Assembly: GCA_963205275.1 (NCBI GenBank)
Contig: CAUJIH010000103.1
Location: 1-64,000 of the forward strand
Length of the DNA: 64,000 nt
Direction of reading: 5' to 3'
Source: Verrucomicrobiota bacterium
Lineage (GTDB): Bacteria > Verrucomicrobiota > Verrucomicrobiia > Verrucomicrobiales > DEV007
Shown here: piece after piece, positions 2,071 through 12,304 of the stretch
How the letters are laid out: every line of letters starts with the position of its first letter
How positions within the stretch are numbered: position 1 is the stretch's first letter
Made by a program: the position numbers and the translations under genes
Notes under the pieces: generated by a model
The model's database searches: none
The model's input: only the letters and a program-made list of their open reading frames with translations
Told to the model about the DNA's origin: nothing

Positions 2071-2510
2071 TCCAAAATTTTTCTCTCATGTCCAAAGATA
2101 CTCGATCCACTGCCCTCGAAGCCGCCTTTGCCGAACCTGCGGGTGAAACAACGAAGGTGGGGAGTCTTCATCTGCGCCCGCTCTCTCTCGGGACGGTTAA
2201 CGTCTGTCGTCAACTCGGGCTTTCGCTCTTTCTCGATGAGGATGTGGAGATCGACGATACGGAGAGACAGCGCCAGATTGTTGCCTTTGCATGGGTGCAA
2301 TCCGCGCCTCTTTCCGTGGTTCTGGCGGCACTCCGGAATGACACTGCGATAGATTGCATTGCAGAGTTTGAGTTCCAGTTGGAAGTAGGCGATCTGCCTG
2401 CGCTGATCGCGGAAATTCAAAGGGTATCGAAACTGGCTGCGGCTGCCGTAGTCGATGTGGCTCCCAAACCAGGACACACCGGAGAAGACGGCGCACCCCC
2501 AAACTACTAG
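2067..2510 (+). CDS. Tail assembly chaperone, short form (gpG-like)
   Basis: This 147 aa protein lies directly before the gp10/gpZ-like and tape measure genes, the usual place of the gpG/gpGT chaperones that bind the tape measure protein during tail assembly. Its mostly helical, acidic sequence fits that family. The last codons contain a perfect slippery heptamer, and the -1 frame stays open past the stop, which is the hallmark of this gene pair. An in-frame ATG at 2088 is an alternative start, but 2067 gives the ATGA overlap with the previous gene. Confidence 0.7.
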   Translation: MIQNFSLMSKDTRSTALEAAFAEPAGETTKVGSLHLRPLSLGTVNVCRQLGLSLFLDEDVEIDDTERQRQIVAFAWVQSAPLSVVLAALRNDTAIDCIAEFEFQLEVGDLPALIAEIQRVSKLAAAAVVDVAPKPGHTGEDGAPPNY

Positions 2511-2740
2511 AGCCAGGGTGGACAGCGGCGATCCTCTTCACTCTGGCACGCGAAACTAGCTGGACGGAGGATTTTCTGCTCTGGCAGCTCCCTCTGGCGC
2601 GAGCGCTCCAATACTACCACTGCGCTCTTCGCGCTTCTCTTGTGTGGACGATACCGCCAAGCGAACCCGTGCATGAGAGTCTGGCTCGTCTGGAAGCTCT
2701 GGCCGCGACTCTGGGCGTTGACGAGGAGGACTGGACATGA
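2067..2740 (+). CDS. Tail assembly chaperone, -1 frameshift fusion (gpGT-like)
   Basis: Shifting -1 at the CCCAAAC heptamer (2498-2504) bypasses TAG at 2508-2510 and adds 78 codons, giving a predicted 224 aa fusion ending at TGA 2738-2740. The extension contains TEDFLLWQLPLARALQYY and ends in an acidic GVDEEDWT. It has no convincing start codon of its own, and its stop overlaps the start of the next gene (ATGA). In lambda and relatives the rare fusion bridges the tail tube and the tape measure protein. The frameshift is predicted from sequence only. Confidence 0.75.
2498..2504 (+). other. Programmed -1 frameshift site (CCCAAAC)
   Basis: In the zero frame the codons read C CCA AAC, an exact X XXY YYZ heptamer. 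After slipping, the tRNAs re-pair with CCC and AAA. The zero-frame stop follows one codon later. No strong downstream pseudoknot was worked out by eye, although the following region is GC-rich. Confidence 0.7.
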
Positions 2741-3387
2741 GCATAGACATCGACATGCGCGAGTTCATGAACACGGTGGCTCGCTTTTTGGCCACTTCGA
2801 AGAGGGACGGCCTAGTGGTGATGCGGGAACAGGCTCGCGGAGTGCTTCGTGAGGTGATCGCGCTGACTCCGCCGGGCCGACCGGGAGTGTCCGGGAACGC
2901 CCGAAGTCGCGGGGCAGCAAAGGTGAAAGCAGATATACTAAAGCTGGTTCGGGGAACGAATGCCGAGGCTCGCGTGGAGCGGCTCGATATAGCGCAAATC
3001 CACGCAGCCAATCGGCGAGGAGGCCGTGTGACAAGCTCGATCACTCCGCGTATCCGTGTCCCTGCCAGTGCTCTTCGCGCCTACATCCAGAGAAAACAAA
3101 AGCGGGTGGGACGGCTCGCCTCTGGTTGGAACACGGCGGCGGCCCGTCTCGGCTATCGCCCTCCCGCATGGATCTGGAGAAATGATGGCCCCGGTTCTAT
3201 CGAGATTCGTGTGACTGATAAAGACCTCGTGATCCGGGCGACGAACCAGGTTGCATACGCCTCCGAGATTTCGATGCTCAATCGACGCATTCAGACCGCA
3301 CTCAATATCCAGCGTAACAAAATGGAGCGCCGTCTCGCCTATTTCATGAAACAGTCGGCAGCTCGCTCCGGGTTCAAGTCCTCGTAA
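2737..3387 (+). CDS. HK97 gp10/gpZ-like minor tail or tail-completion protein
   Basis: This 216 aa basic protein begins with a helix-rich segment (REQARGVLREVIALTPPG) followed by Gly/Ser/Arg-rich sequence, then VGRLASGWNTAAARLG and a late beta segment with NQVAYASEI. The combination of a TPP-G turn, an S-G-W helix and a V-Y/A-N strand is typical of proteins that complete the tail end at the neck. It overlaps the chaperone fusion by 4 bases. In most siphophages this type of gene precedes the tube gene; here it lies between chaperone and tape measure. Confidence 0.5.
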   Translation: MSIDIDMREFMNTVARFLATSKRDGLVVMREQARGVLREVIALTPPGRPGVSGNARSRGAAKVKADILKLVRGTNAEARVERLDIAQIHAANRRGGRVTSSITPRIRVPASALRAYIQRKQKRVGRLASGWNTAAARLGYRPPAWIWRNDGPGSIEIRVTDKDLVIRATNQVAYASEISMLNRRIQTALNIQRNKMERRLAYFMKQSAARSGFKSS

Positions 3388-3391
3388 TTCA

Positions 3392-5146
3392 ATGGCCTCC
3401 ATTACTGCTGAACTCGCCCTAGAGGTTTCCAAGTTTCAGGGAGCTTTGCGTCAGGCGCAGAATTCTCTGCGGAGCTTCCGCACTCAGGCGCGCAGTCAGG
3501 GTGCGGGACTGGGCTCAGCTATTTTTGCCAGTGTCGGAAAAGCAGCGGCGGGGATAGGGGCGATACTGGCAGGAGCCAAAATCGCATCCAAAACCGGGGA
3601 GCTAATCTCTGGCTCCATTCAGCGGGCGGTCGATGCGGAGCAACTGCAAGTGAGCTTTGACGTGCTGATCGGGGATGCCTCGAAGGCGACAAACACGATT
3701 GAGTCTCTGCGAAAACTCGGAGCTGATACTCCTTTGGAATTTCCCGAGCTTGCGGAAGCCGCCCGGCAGCTCATCGCGTTTCAGGAAGATGCCAGTACCG
3801 TCACGGACACGCTGCGGCGGATCGGAGACGTGTCCACGGGAATTCAGGCTCCCATCGGCGAGATTGCTGAAATGTATGGTCGCGCTCGTGTCCAGGGGCG
3901 GCTATTTTCTCAGGACTTGAAGCGCTTAACAAGTCGCGGTATCCCCATCATACAGGAATTTGCCAAGCAGTTGGGAGTCACGGATTCCGAGGTGCAGAAG
4001 ATGGCTAGCGCTGGGAAACTGAGCTTTTCCAATCTAGAACAGGCCTTTATCGACCTGACTTCCGAGGGAGGGAAATTCAACAACATGATGGAGCGCCAGA
4101 GTCACACGGTGGGCGGTCTCTGGTCCACTTTGCAGGATAACTTCGGCGAAATGCTGCTTTCCTTCGGTGAACCCATCAATGATGCATTGCGCCCGCTGCT
4201 CGAAGATGCTGTGGAGCAGGTCGATAAACTTCAGGAAGGAGCCGCTCGATTGGGGGCGGCGCTTTCCTCGGCCATGCGAATCGTGATCGGAATTTTTCGC
4301 GAGTTCAGCATGGGCGAAATCGGGCTGCTCCTGCTCGATTCGCTTGTGCTGGCTTTCAAGTCCTCGGTGAACACGCTCTATCGAGGGCTTGTGAGCGTGA
4401 TCGCTGCTGCGGGTCGGTTCATCGTCGAAATCTTCAAGAGTGCTTTGACGCTCTTTTCGATTCTCGGCACCGCAGACTTCTGGAAAGGCATGGGCAATGT
4501 TCTCGCCGGTGTCGCGAAGACCTTTGCTGCCATCCTCATGGAACTGCTGGCCAAAGCGATTGAGCAAATCAAGCGTATCCCTGGGGCGAGCCGACTGCTC
4601 GGAGATTCGGATTCTTCCCTGCGAAATACTGCCGAATCTCTTCGCAAAGGTGCCGATGAAAAGCTCGCAAGAGGGTCCGACCTTCTCACGCCTGCTTTTG
4701 AAGCCGTCCAGCAACAAATGGGAGAGACTTTTCAGAACGTGGGAGAGGTGTTCACCGACGTTTGGAATAATCTCGATGATCTCATGGATACCGATGGAGA
4801 GGAATCCCGGCTCGCCGATGCTGTCCTTCGGATGATGGATCGCATGGCGCAGATGGACAAGAAGCCCGAGGTATCGAAAGGAGGGGGGCCTCCACCTGCG
4901 CTTGCCTCTGCCGGGAAGATGGAAACAGGGCGTCTTGCCACAGGAGCGTTTGCATCTGCGATCAATCTGATCATGGGACGCAGTGCCAACGAGATGATTC
5001 TCGATGAGACAAAGAAGCAGACGGAGATGCAGCAGCGTATGGTGAGCGAGTTGCAGGGACTCAATCAGAAAATGACTCCGACTCCTCAGAGTAGTGCACC
5101 TGCCGCCCCGGTTCTCGCAGTTGATACGGTGGCTCGTTTTGGATGA
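3392..5146 (+). CDS. Tape measure protein
   Basis: This 584 aa protein sets tail length and is threaded through the tail tube. Residues about 75-260 match the conserved tape-measure N-terminal domain: a QVSFDVLIGDASKA start, a TPLEFPELAEAARQL segment, GRLFSQDLKRLTSRGIPI, and a closing NMMERQSHTVGGLWSTLQD. Hydrophobic and helical stretches follow (about 300-400), and the C-terminus is Met/Gln-rich. By the usual rule of about 0.15 nm per residue the tail would be near 90 nm, short for a siphophage. It overlaps the next gene by 4 bases. Confidence 0.9.
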   Translation: MASITAELALEVSKFQGALRQAQNSLRSFRTQARSQGAGLGSAIFASVGKAAAGIGAILAGAKIASKTGELISGSIQRAVDAEQLQVSFDVLIGDASKATNTIESLRKLGADTPLEFPELAEAARQLIAFQEDASTVTDTLRRIGDVSTGIQAPIGEIAEMYGRARVQGRLFSQDLKRLTSRGIPIIQEFAKQLGVTDSEVQKMASAGKLSFSNLEQAFIDLTSEGGKFNNMMERQSHTVGGLWSTLQDNFGEMLLSFGEPINDALRPLLEDAVEQVDKLQEGAARLGAALSSAMRIVIGIFREFSMGEIGLLLLDSLVLAFKSSVNTLYRGLVSVIAAAGRFIVEIFKSALTLFSILGTADFWKGMGNVLAGVAKTFAAILMELLAKAIEQIKRIPGASRLLGDSDSSLRNTAESLRKGADEKLARGSDLLTPAFEAVQQQMGETFQNVGEVFTDVWNNLDDLMDTDGEESRLADAVLRMMDRMAQMDKKPEVSKGGGPPPALASAGKMETGRLATGAFASAINLIMGRSANEMILDETKKQTEMQQRMVSELQGLNQKMTPTPQSSAPAAPVLAVDTVARFG

Positions 5147-11095: not shown

Positions 11096-12304
11096 ATGTC
11101 GATACTCCCGGAGCCTTCTACCATGATGCATCTGCCTGCGGCGCTGCGCTACGCTCGCAAAGGCTTTGCGATCCGACGTGCTCTGTGGGACGGAAGCGAC
11201 GAGGAAAACGAGCTGATCTGGCTCATTTATCGAGGAGGGATTTTCTATCGCCTCAGTGCCGATAGACGGGAGATCGTGCAGAATGATCAAATGACACGCG
11301 AGGACTTTCTGGCTCGCGATTGGACGCTTCTCCCTGCTTCCTGTGTAAGTGGCAACAGTGTCGTCTCTGAGTCTCAAAGTCGGAATGGGTGTGAGTGCCG
11401 ACTCGGAGCACAACCCTACCCGGACTGGGATGATGAGGACGATCCACTGGCTGGACAGGACACAAAAAATCCGAACAGGTCAATGGGACTGGAGGGCTGC
11501 ACATGGCTGGCGGGCACTTGGTCCGGGGGATCATGTGGCTGTGGTCCGGGAACGGGTAGACCGCCAACCTGGCCAAGACTGCCGGGTGACCCACCGCCCC
11601 CAAGGCCACCAGAGCCACCAAAGCCGCCAGAGCCACCTAAACCACCAGAGCCACCCAAACCTCCTGATCCTCCTGGATCGCCTGGTACGAGCGATAGTTC
11701 TGGCACAGGAGGGGGATCGAGTAGCGGGTCGGGATCAGGAGGGGGATCGAGTGGTGGAGGCGGCAGCTCCAAGCGCCCCCCTCGTAGGCCCCGTGCCTAT
11801 GGCCTCCCAAATGTGACATTAAACGCTTTTGTGACAGATTCGAGCTGCATCCGAAGACTGCCAGAAGCGCCATGCGGACATCTCAACTTGCCTGATAATT
11901 CGCCCCAATCTCGCGAAATTGCCGGGACAATCACGATTGGCCCTCATCCTGAAGGGCTACGCGATCTGTGCTGGATCAGTGTAATCTGTGCCGGACAGGT
12001 GCTACTGCGACAAATCGGAGCGCCGGGAGATTCATTTAACTTCGGGCCTGCCGGGCCGTTTCTACAGACTGCTGGTGGCAATATGCCTGTCTTCGCAACG
12101 GTCCATTTTCCCGGACAAAGAGGGGGAACACAGAGCGCCAATGCGCAGGCAGCTTGGCCTTCTCACTGTGCTCCTCAAGGCCCTTGCCCTGATCCAAATC
12201 CTGACCCCGGTCCTGGCCCTGACCCCGGTCCTGGTCCTGATCCTGATCCTGATCCTGATCCTGATCCTGATCCTGATCCTGATCCCTATGGGGCAATGGA
12301 TTGA
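11096..12304 (+). CDS. DUF2829/Tad2-like domain fused to low-complexity tails (phage)
   Basis: This 402 aa protein is modular. Residues about 10-82 follow the DUF2829 pattern (the family of the Thoeris anti-defence protein Tad2): a helix with AALRYARKGFAIRRALWDG, a WLIY strand, and a final REDFLARDWTLLP. Then come a Cys/Trp/Gly patch (about 125-155), a proline-rich segment with PPEPPK repeats (about 165-200), a Gly/Ser linker (about 205-230), a beta-rich domain (about 240-360) and a C-terminal (Asp-Pro)n tail. The family match is by eye. A virion tip function is the alternative to anti-defence. Confidence 0.5.
   Translation: MSILPEPSTMMHLPAALRYARKGFAIRRALWDGSDEENELIWLIYRGGIFYRLSADRREIVQNDQMTREDFLARDWTLLPASCVSGNSVVSESQSRNGCECRLGAQPYPDWDDEDDPLAGQDTKNPNRSMGLEGCTWLAGTWSGGSCGCGPGTGRPPTWPRLPGDPPPPRPPEPPKPPEPPKPPEPPKPPDPPGSPGTSDSSGTGGGSSSGSGSGGGSSGGGGSSKRPPRRPRAYGLPNVTLNAFVTDSSCIRRLPEAPCGHLNLPDNSPQSREIAGTITIGPHPEGLRDLCWISVICAGQVLLRQIGAPGDSFNFGPAGPFLQTAGGNMPVFATVHFPGQRGGTQSANAQAAWPSHCAPQGPCPDPNPDPGPGPDPGPGPDPDPDPDPDPDPDPDPYGAMD
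12239..12286 (+). repeat. Hexanucleotide repeat GATCCT (7 units plus GATCCC)
   Basis: Seven perfect GATCCT units followed by a GATCCC variant encode the Asp-Pro tail of the preceding gene. Because the unit is 6 bases, slippage changes the tail length by two residues and keeps the frame. Confidence 0.9.

Follow-up and report, generated by a model that had tools for sequence, protein, structure and literature searches.

A programmed −1 ribosomal frameshift, aided by a hairpin, very probably governs the junction of two overlapping reading frames in the tail module described herein, and it would yield the predicted tail chaperones G and G-T. The window, by which we mean the whole 64,000-nucleotide stretch analyzed, comes from a Verrucomicrobiota bacterium (GCA_963205275.1, contig CAUJIH010000103.1, positions 1-64,000, forward strand, on which G, T, the heptamer, the hairpin, the ORF after them and the tape measure gene lie). 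The arrangement of the frames, the slippery heptamer, its conservation, the selection acting on the −1 extension and the covariation of the hairpin are read from the sequence itself, and together they carry this reading.

From these observations we infer the following course of events, including the occurrence and relative rate of frameshifting, the stimulation by the hairpin and the role of the products as chaperones. Most ribosomes would follow the zero frame to the TAG at 2508-2510 and release the 140-aa tail assembly chaperone G, while a minority would move one base back on C_CCA_AAC, translate 78 more codons in the −1 frame and produce a 217-aa G-T fusion. The tRNA-Pro on CCA and the tRNA-Asn on AAC would re-pair on CCC and AAA, respectively; the tRNAs found in the host assembly include Pro UGG, CGG and GGG, Asn GUU, and Lys UUU and CUU (33 of the 43 tRNA matches examined). 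An 11-bp hairpin located 7 nt after the heptamer would help this slippage. If the analogy with lambda holds, G would serve as a coat for the tape measure protein (3392-5146), whereas tail tube subunits would be recruited by the T part of the fusion. As a point of reference for the rate, the cited portion of PMC3711429 gives 6-7% in reporter experiments on an HK97-related tail chaperone cluster.

Reading frames and genomic setting

The first 6 kb of the window constitute a tail module, as judged from a reading of its ORFs and from profile searches. Within it, the zero-frame, G-like ORF (140 aa) spans 2088-2510; its listed start is the ATG at 2067, but the ATG at 2088 is the more likely one, because aligned relatives begin there. 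The ORF ends in GCA CCC CCA AAC TAC TAG, so that the heptamer CCCAAAC (2498-2504) stands in the −1 slip phase, C_CCA_AAC, one sense codon before the stop (TAG 2508-2510), which is how an earlier note on this DNA had described it, with all coordinates correct. The T-like extension occupies 2504-2740, with base 2504 read twice: 78 codons (2504-2737) are followed by a TGA at 2738-2740 that overlaps the ATG at 2737 of the next ORF, again as that note had stated, and the predicted fusion, counted from ATG 2088, comes to 217 aa. No stop codon interrupts the −1 frame between 2372 and the TGA at 2738-2740. A scan of this frame for ATG, GTG and TTG returned two late GTG codons (2642 and 2669), with no ATG and no TTG, which bears out the further claim that the extension lacks a start of its own.

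Downstream, an ORF of 216 aa (2737-3387), with a similar ORF in the same place in the relatives L013, L052 and L113, separates the predicted chaperone from the tape measure gene (3392-5146, 584 aa; PF20155, E 9.7e-24; phrog_9959, E 1.3e-67). Upstream, the ORF at 213-524 bears a weak likeness to head-tail attachment proteins (PF05354, E 0.0017, below cut-off; phrog_82, E 0.017); none of the ORFs upstream of G in the window was recognized as a major tail protein. Two adjacent small ORFs in this region, at 938-1276 (112 aa) and 1283-1615 (110 aa), have no family match, and both have counterparts in L013 and L113; a relationship between the two, and with the tail tube, is possible. Well past the tail genes, an ORF at 11096-12304 has extended Pro-rich and Asp-Pro repeats toward its end.

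The identity of G and T as tail chaperones is suggested by their lambda G/GT-like size and architecture and by their place upstream of a tape measure gene, rather than by homology. The G and T proteins of the window and of the aligned relatives had no match beyond chance level in Pfam, PHROGs or NCBIfam, and the G model (pLDDT 77.9) had no PDB match with E < 0.001; membership in a named family therefore cannot be shown by sequence. A best VIA-align Z of 3.1, for the G model against an ATP synthase chain, was taken as chance, as was the single match (E 1.1) from a sequence search of solved structures. In BFVD, the best matches of the G model were uncharacterized phage proteins, and the rows named tail assembly chaperone had E > 1. 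The single-sequence AlphaFold model of T was weak (pLDDT 60). Searches of phage records gave one short match by distant blastn (68 query bases) and none by tblastn of the predicted fusion, and no title or abstract among the literature matches listed dealt with this G/T family. Low sequence similarity is known for the tail chaperone group, according to the cited part of a review (PMC5009743). We thus regard G and G-T as a candidate family, separate by sequence, that would work like lambda G/GT.

The junction across relatives

Relatives were drawn from IMG/VR (the best 80 of 89, plus earlier scans) and from GTDB genome contigs, the latter giving 7 loci, all in records titled Verrucomicrobiota. 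Matches occurred in 6 of the 74 genomes of the window's family and in 11 of the 387 of the phylum, its own genome included in both counts. Profiles of the two parts were used to read these loci anew, and the removal of duplicates left 80 distinct junctions with separate parts, or 31 clusters at 85% nucleotide identity. The second part lies in the −1 frame in all 80 junctions and hence in 31 of 31 clusters. An in-phase X_XXY_YYZ occurs no more than 16 codons from the stop in 29 of the 31 clusters and within the last two codons in 26; among controls, consisting of 308 other non-overlapping long ORFs from these representative loci, 5 carry an in-phase XXXYYYN in their final two codons (3 with AAA as YYY). 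GGGAAAG, GGGAAAC and other heptamers take the same place as CCCAAAC, such that the letters vary and the phase is kept. The string CCCAAAC itself is not rare (6 copies on both strands of the window versus 5.2 expected), and it is its phase and place that are unusual. The two clusters without X_XXY_YYZ are L006, which has GGGGGAA, and L120, which has a run of nine A.

Several further loci are described here in their own right. In L120, L122 and L126, which are distant and share the same gene order, an A9 run stands farther than 16 codons upstream of the zero-frame stop, and those 16 codons contain no heptamer. In L045 (G068), the zero-frame part ending at the heptamer is about 290 aa long and, by eye in translation, seems to contain two similar chaperone-like halves in tandem. 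Five loci in which no G was detected beside T were excluded from the counts; by eye, L118 has GGGAAAG, L119 AAAAAAC, L121 GGGAAAC, L116 AAAAAAG and L044 nothing clear. The window also has a Shine-Dalgarno-like GGAG at 2481-2484, 13 nt upstream of the heptamer, whose role is doubtful; across relatives, such an element precedes the heptamer in 16 of 29 clusters versus 13.8 ± 2.0 in synonymous shuffles, which is no enrichment.

A shift made in transcription, by a slipping polymerase rather than a slipping ribosome, would find suitable material in the C5 run before AAA in the window, the G5 run of L006-type relatives and the A9 run of those of the L120 type. However, 3-5 repeated bases make a short run for a slipping polymerase, and the X_XXY_YYZ phase, which is kept while the letters change, is needed for tRNA re-pairing and not by a polymerase. 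A hairpin kept at ribosomal spacing is likewise at odds with such a shift, and we consider this the least probable of the explanations weighed herein.

The extension behaves as a translated product. Among the 7 sequences of the window's clade (21 pairs), its dN/dS is 0.06-0.23, with synonymous differences that reach 0.71 and are hence partly saturated, and in 19 of the 21 pairs the zero-frame part has the higher pN/pS. Two further sets of sequences give dN/dS values of 0.07-0.36. On these substitution patterns, the extension is a protein under purifying selection.

An alternative is that T is a separate protein translated from its own start, without any frameshift, at GTG 2642, GTG 2669 or a non-standard codon. 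The two GTGs are in frame, and in several other clades an ATG is common 23-29 nt past the stop of the zero frame. Starting at either GTG would, however, cost 46 or 55 of the 78 codons, and with them the majority of the conserved residues, and in the window-clade loci scanned, ATG, GTG or TTG codons appear in the −1 frame after the junction no closer than 38 nt past the zero-frame stop. An independent second-frame start, which the earlier note had named as a possible refutation, is thus not the rule among relatives. Moreover, the heptamer and the codons upstream of any start are also conserved, and the same two parts are fused in frame in two lineages. Separate initiation of T is accordingly very unlikely, if marginally less so than polymerase slippage. 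The −1 frameshift predicted in that note, by comparison, is supported by the phase of the heptamer, the missing start, the −1 relation in every cluster and the purifying selection, and the comparison of heptamers across relatives that it had called for gave the conserved phase described above.

Single-frame readings of the two parts were met in four places. One of these, L057, was rejected as an in-frame fusion, because its junction, G_GGA_AAG, is still of the −1 kind, the change of frame being farther upstream, within G. In the others (L052:998-1648, L053 and, on the minus strand, L113:1489-2133), both chaperone parts lie in one frame, and there is no heptamer. They represent two separate lineages, L052/L053 and the distant L113. 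In L052 the order of the tail genes is preserved, and a 504-aa ORF sits where a tape measure gene would be expected (assigned by position); L113 has a similar order.

The downstream hairpin

The predicted hairpin consists of a 5′ arm at 2512-2522, beginning 7 nt after the heptamer, and a 3′ arm at 2537-2547 that pairs with it over 11 bp. The segment 2509-2560 folds at −18.6 kcal/mol (z −1.68 against dinucleotide shuffles, 11/200), and the longer segment 2505-2600 gives z −0.96 (31/200). Relatives align over the region gap-free. Pairs were counted in 25 rows, picked out of 64 distinct segments for folding into this stem, and in these selected rows 97.1% of the 275 cells are paired, as against 33-52% for slid-partner controls; 5 of the 11 pairs are changed on both sides (18 of 500 shuffles attain this number), and 0 of 500 reached the covariation score of the stem. 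In the unselected count over all 64 segments, the distribution of pair numbers is two-humped. Specifically, 9-11 pairs are present in 15 of the 21 clusters with A or C as the last letter of the heptamer and in none of the 7 GGGAAAG clusters or the 1 GGGGGAA cluster; GGGAAAG may do without the hairpin because it is a strong heptamer, yet these clusters form one clade only, so this is not a statistical association.

Since the hairpin arms are coding, the fold was also compared with versions that preserve the amino acids. At 42 nt, with 1000 versions, this synonymous-codon null gave p = 28/1000 for the window and p < 0.03 in 15 of 15 hairpin clusters, with a mean z of −0.35 in the GGGAAAG clusters. 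At 60 nt, the window's hairpin was not significant (105/500), because longer stretches fold well anyway, and this is the weakest point for the window's hairpin on its own.

An alternative compatible with the frameshift itself is that conserved codons give rise to the hairpin as a by-product, which would then stimulate nothing. Its arms do encode conserved residues (EPGW and FTLA), the 60-nt result for the window agrees with this, and the shift of certain tailed phages seems to need no stimulator, according to the cited part of PMC5009743. Set against these points are the compensatory changes in L039, which alter amino acids on both arms, the synonymous null beaten in all 15 hairpin clusters at 42 nt, and the absence of the stem from in-frame fusions whose protein is almost unchanged in sequence. 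The fusions checked, L052 and L053, retain 6 and 7 of the 11 pairs, about the chance level of the slid controls, and as a comparison of sequences they are a natural control in which the heptamer is gone, the hairpin is gone and the protein is kept. We consider a by-product unlikely, albeit a good deal less so than either alternative to the frameshift. A stimulatory hairpin, the reading we prefer, would be consistent with its 7-nt spacing, within the 4-10 nt expected of stimulators, with the covariation and with the 42-nt null, more weakly so at 60 nt. The covarying hairpin after the slip site appears to be new here (the earlier note had mentioned neither it nor the in-frame fused relatives), and this predicted stimulator would be better supported than is usual for frameshifts of the lambda G/GT kind.

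A pseudoknot between the loop and downstream sequence was considered and is not proposed, because in the majority of the 15 hairpin clusters such pairing did not surpass that of synonymous shuffles (best in L014, 14/300; window, 173/300). Among clusters without the main stem, another stem at a similar distance is seen in L006 (z −5.15), L043 (−2.80), L045 (−2.69) and L115 (−2.13), and L006 and L009 have in common an alternative stem downstream of the heptamer, with compensatory changes by eye.

Origins of the signal and closest known systems

A tree built from 34 fusion proteins groups the GGGAAAG clusters in a single clade (100/100) and requires, on the starred branches, at least three changes for CCCAAAC and at least four for GGGAAAC. 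L014, a close relative of the window, has GGGAAAC with the hairpin kept, and L052/L053 are placed near the window's clade, the nearest forks having support of 80-89; the deep order of the tree is unsure because of long branches. We tentatively suggest, as a scenario somewhat less likely than not, that the signal has been rebuilt repeatedly at a fixed address: as weak heptamers, with AAC in the A site, that the covarying hairpin would keep functional, as the strong, E. coli-type GGGAAAG without that hairpin and, in two lineages, as a fusion only, the frameshift having been given up. Were this true, slippery strength and stimulator strength would be interchangeable, and the need for a given G:GT ratio would be called into question. 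The in-frame fused relatives offer a natural test of whether that ratio is always needed.

The closest known system is the −1 frameshift of phage lambda gpG/gpGT, reportedly described by Xu, Hendrix and Duda in 2004. The window resembles it in its short zero-frame protein, its startless −1 extension, its in-phase heptamer near the stop and its tape measure gene downstream, and lambda's GGGAAAG is used by a sister clade within the window's family. The earlier view of the site as a different sequence solution from that of lambda thus holds for the heptamer of the window, CCCAAAC, and is too strong as a general statement, since relatives use GGGAAAG, GGGAAAC and others. In lambda, T adjoins H, whereas in the window one more gene separates T from the tape measure gene; the window further differs in its covarying hairpin 7 nt downstream of CCCAAAC and in having no detectable homology to named tail chaperone families. 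In the lambda model, as given in the cited part of a review (PMC5009743), G binds the tape measure, T binds the tail tube protein, and there are many G per GT.

Other systems share single elements. The G-T frameshifts of the haloarchaeal viruses HCTV-1, -2 and -5 use G_GGA_AAC and A_AAA_AAC, with AAC in the A site, as in the GGGAAAC relatives herein and, by eye, in L119; they differ in their archaeal hosts, and CCCAAAC is not given for them in the cited part of PMC5009743. GGGGGAA, the 'fivetwo' motif, which according to the cited part of the PRFect paper (PMC10885494) is common at the tail-chaperone slip sites of SEA-PHAGES genomes, stands at the same place in L006-type relatives, in contrast to the classic XXXYYYN of most clusters. 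In the cited excerpt of Sharma et al. (PMC4066793), 18 under-represented heptamers shift at more than 0.10% without stimulators in E. coli, and C_CCA_AAC is not among them, which counts against the frameshift reading. The IS3-type cassettes covered in the same excerpt (Sharma et al. 2014) combine X_XXZ_ZZN with a hairpin 4-10 nt downstream whose first pair is G-C, an arrangement matched in the window by a hairpin at 7 nt with a G-C first pair and −18.6 kcal/mol; they differ in producing transposase fusions and in having CCC AAA G, not CCC AAA C, as the strongest motif. Certain tailed phages are described as having no stimulator in the cited part of PMC5009743, and the window would add a tailed-phage case in which a comparison of relatives supports a stimulatory hairpin. 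Our results would extend lambda G/GT control to a predicted tail-chaperone family of Verrucomicrobiota phages and prophages that is absent from Pfam, PHROGs and NCBIfam.
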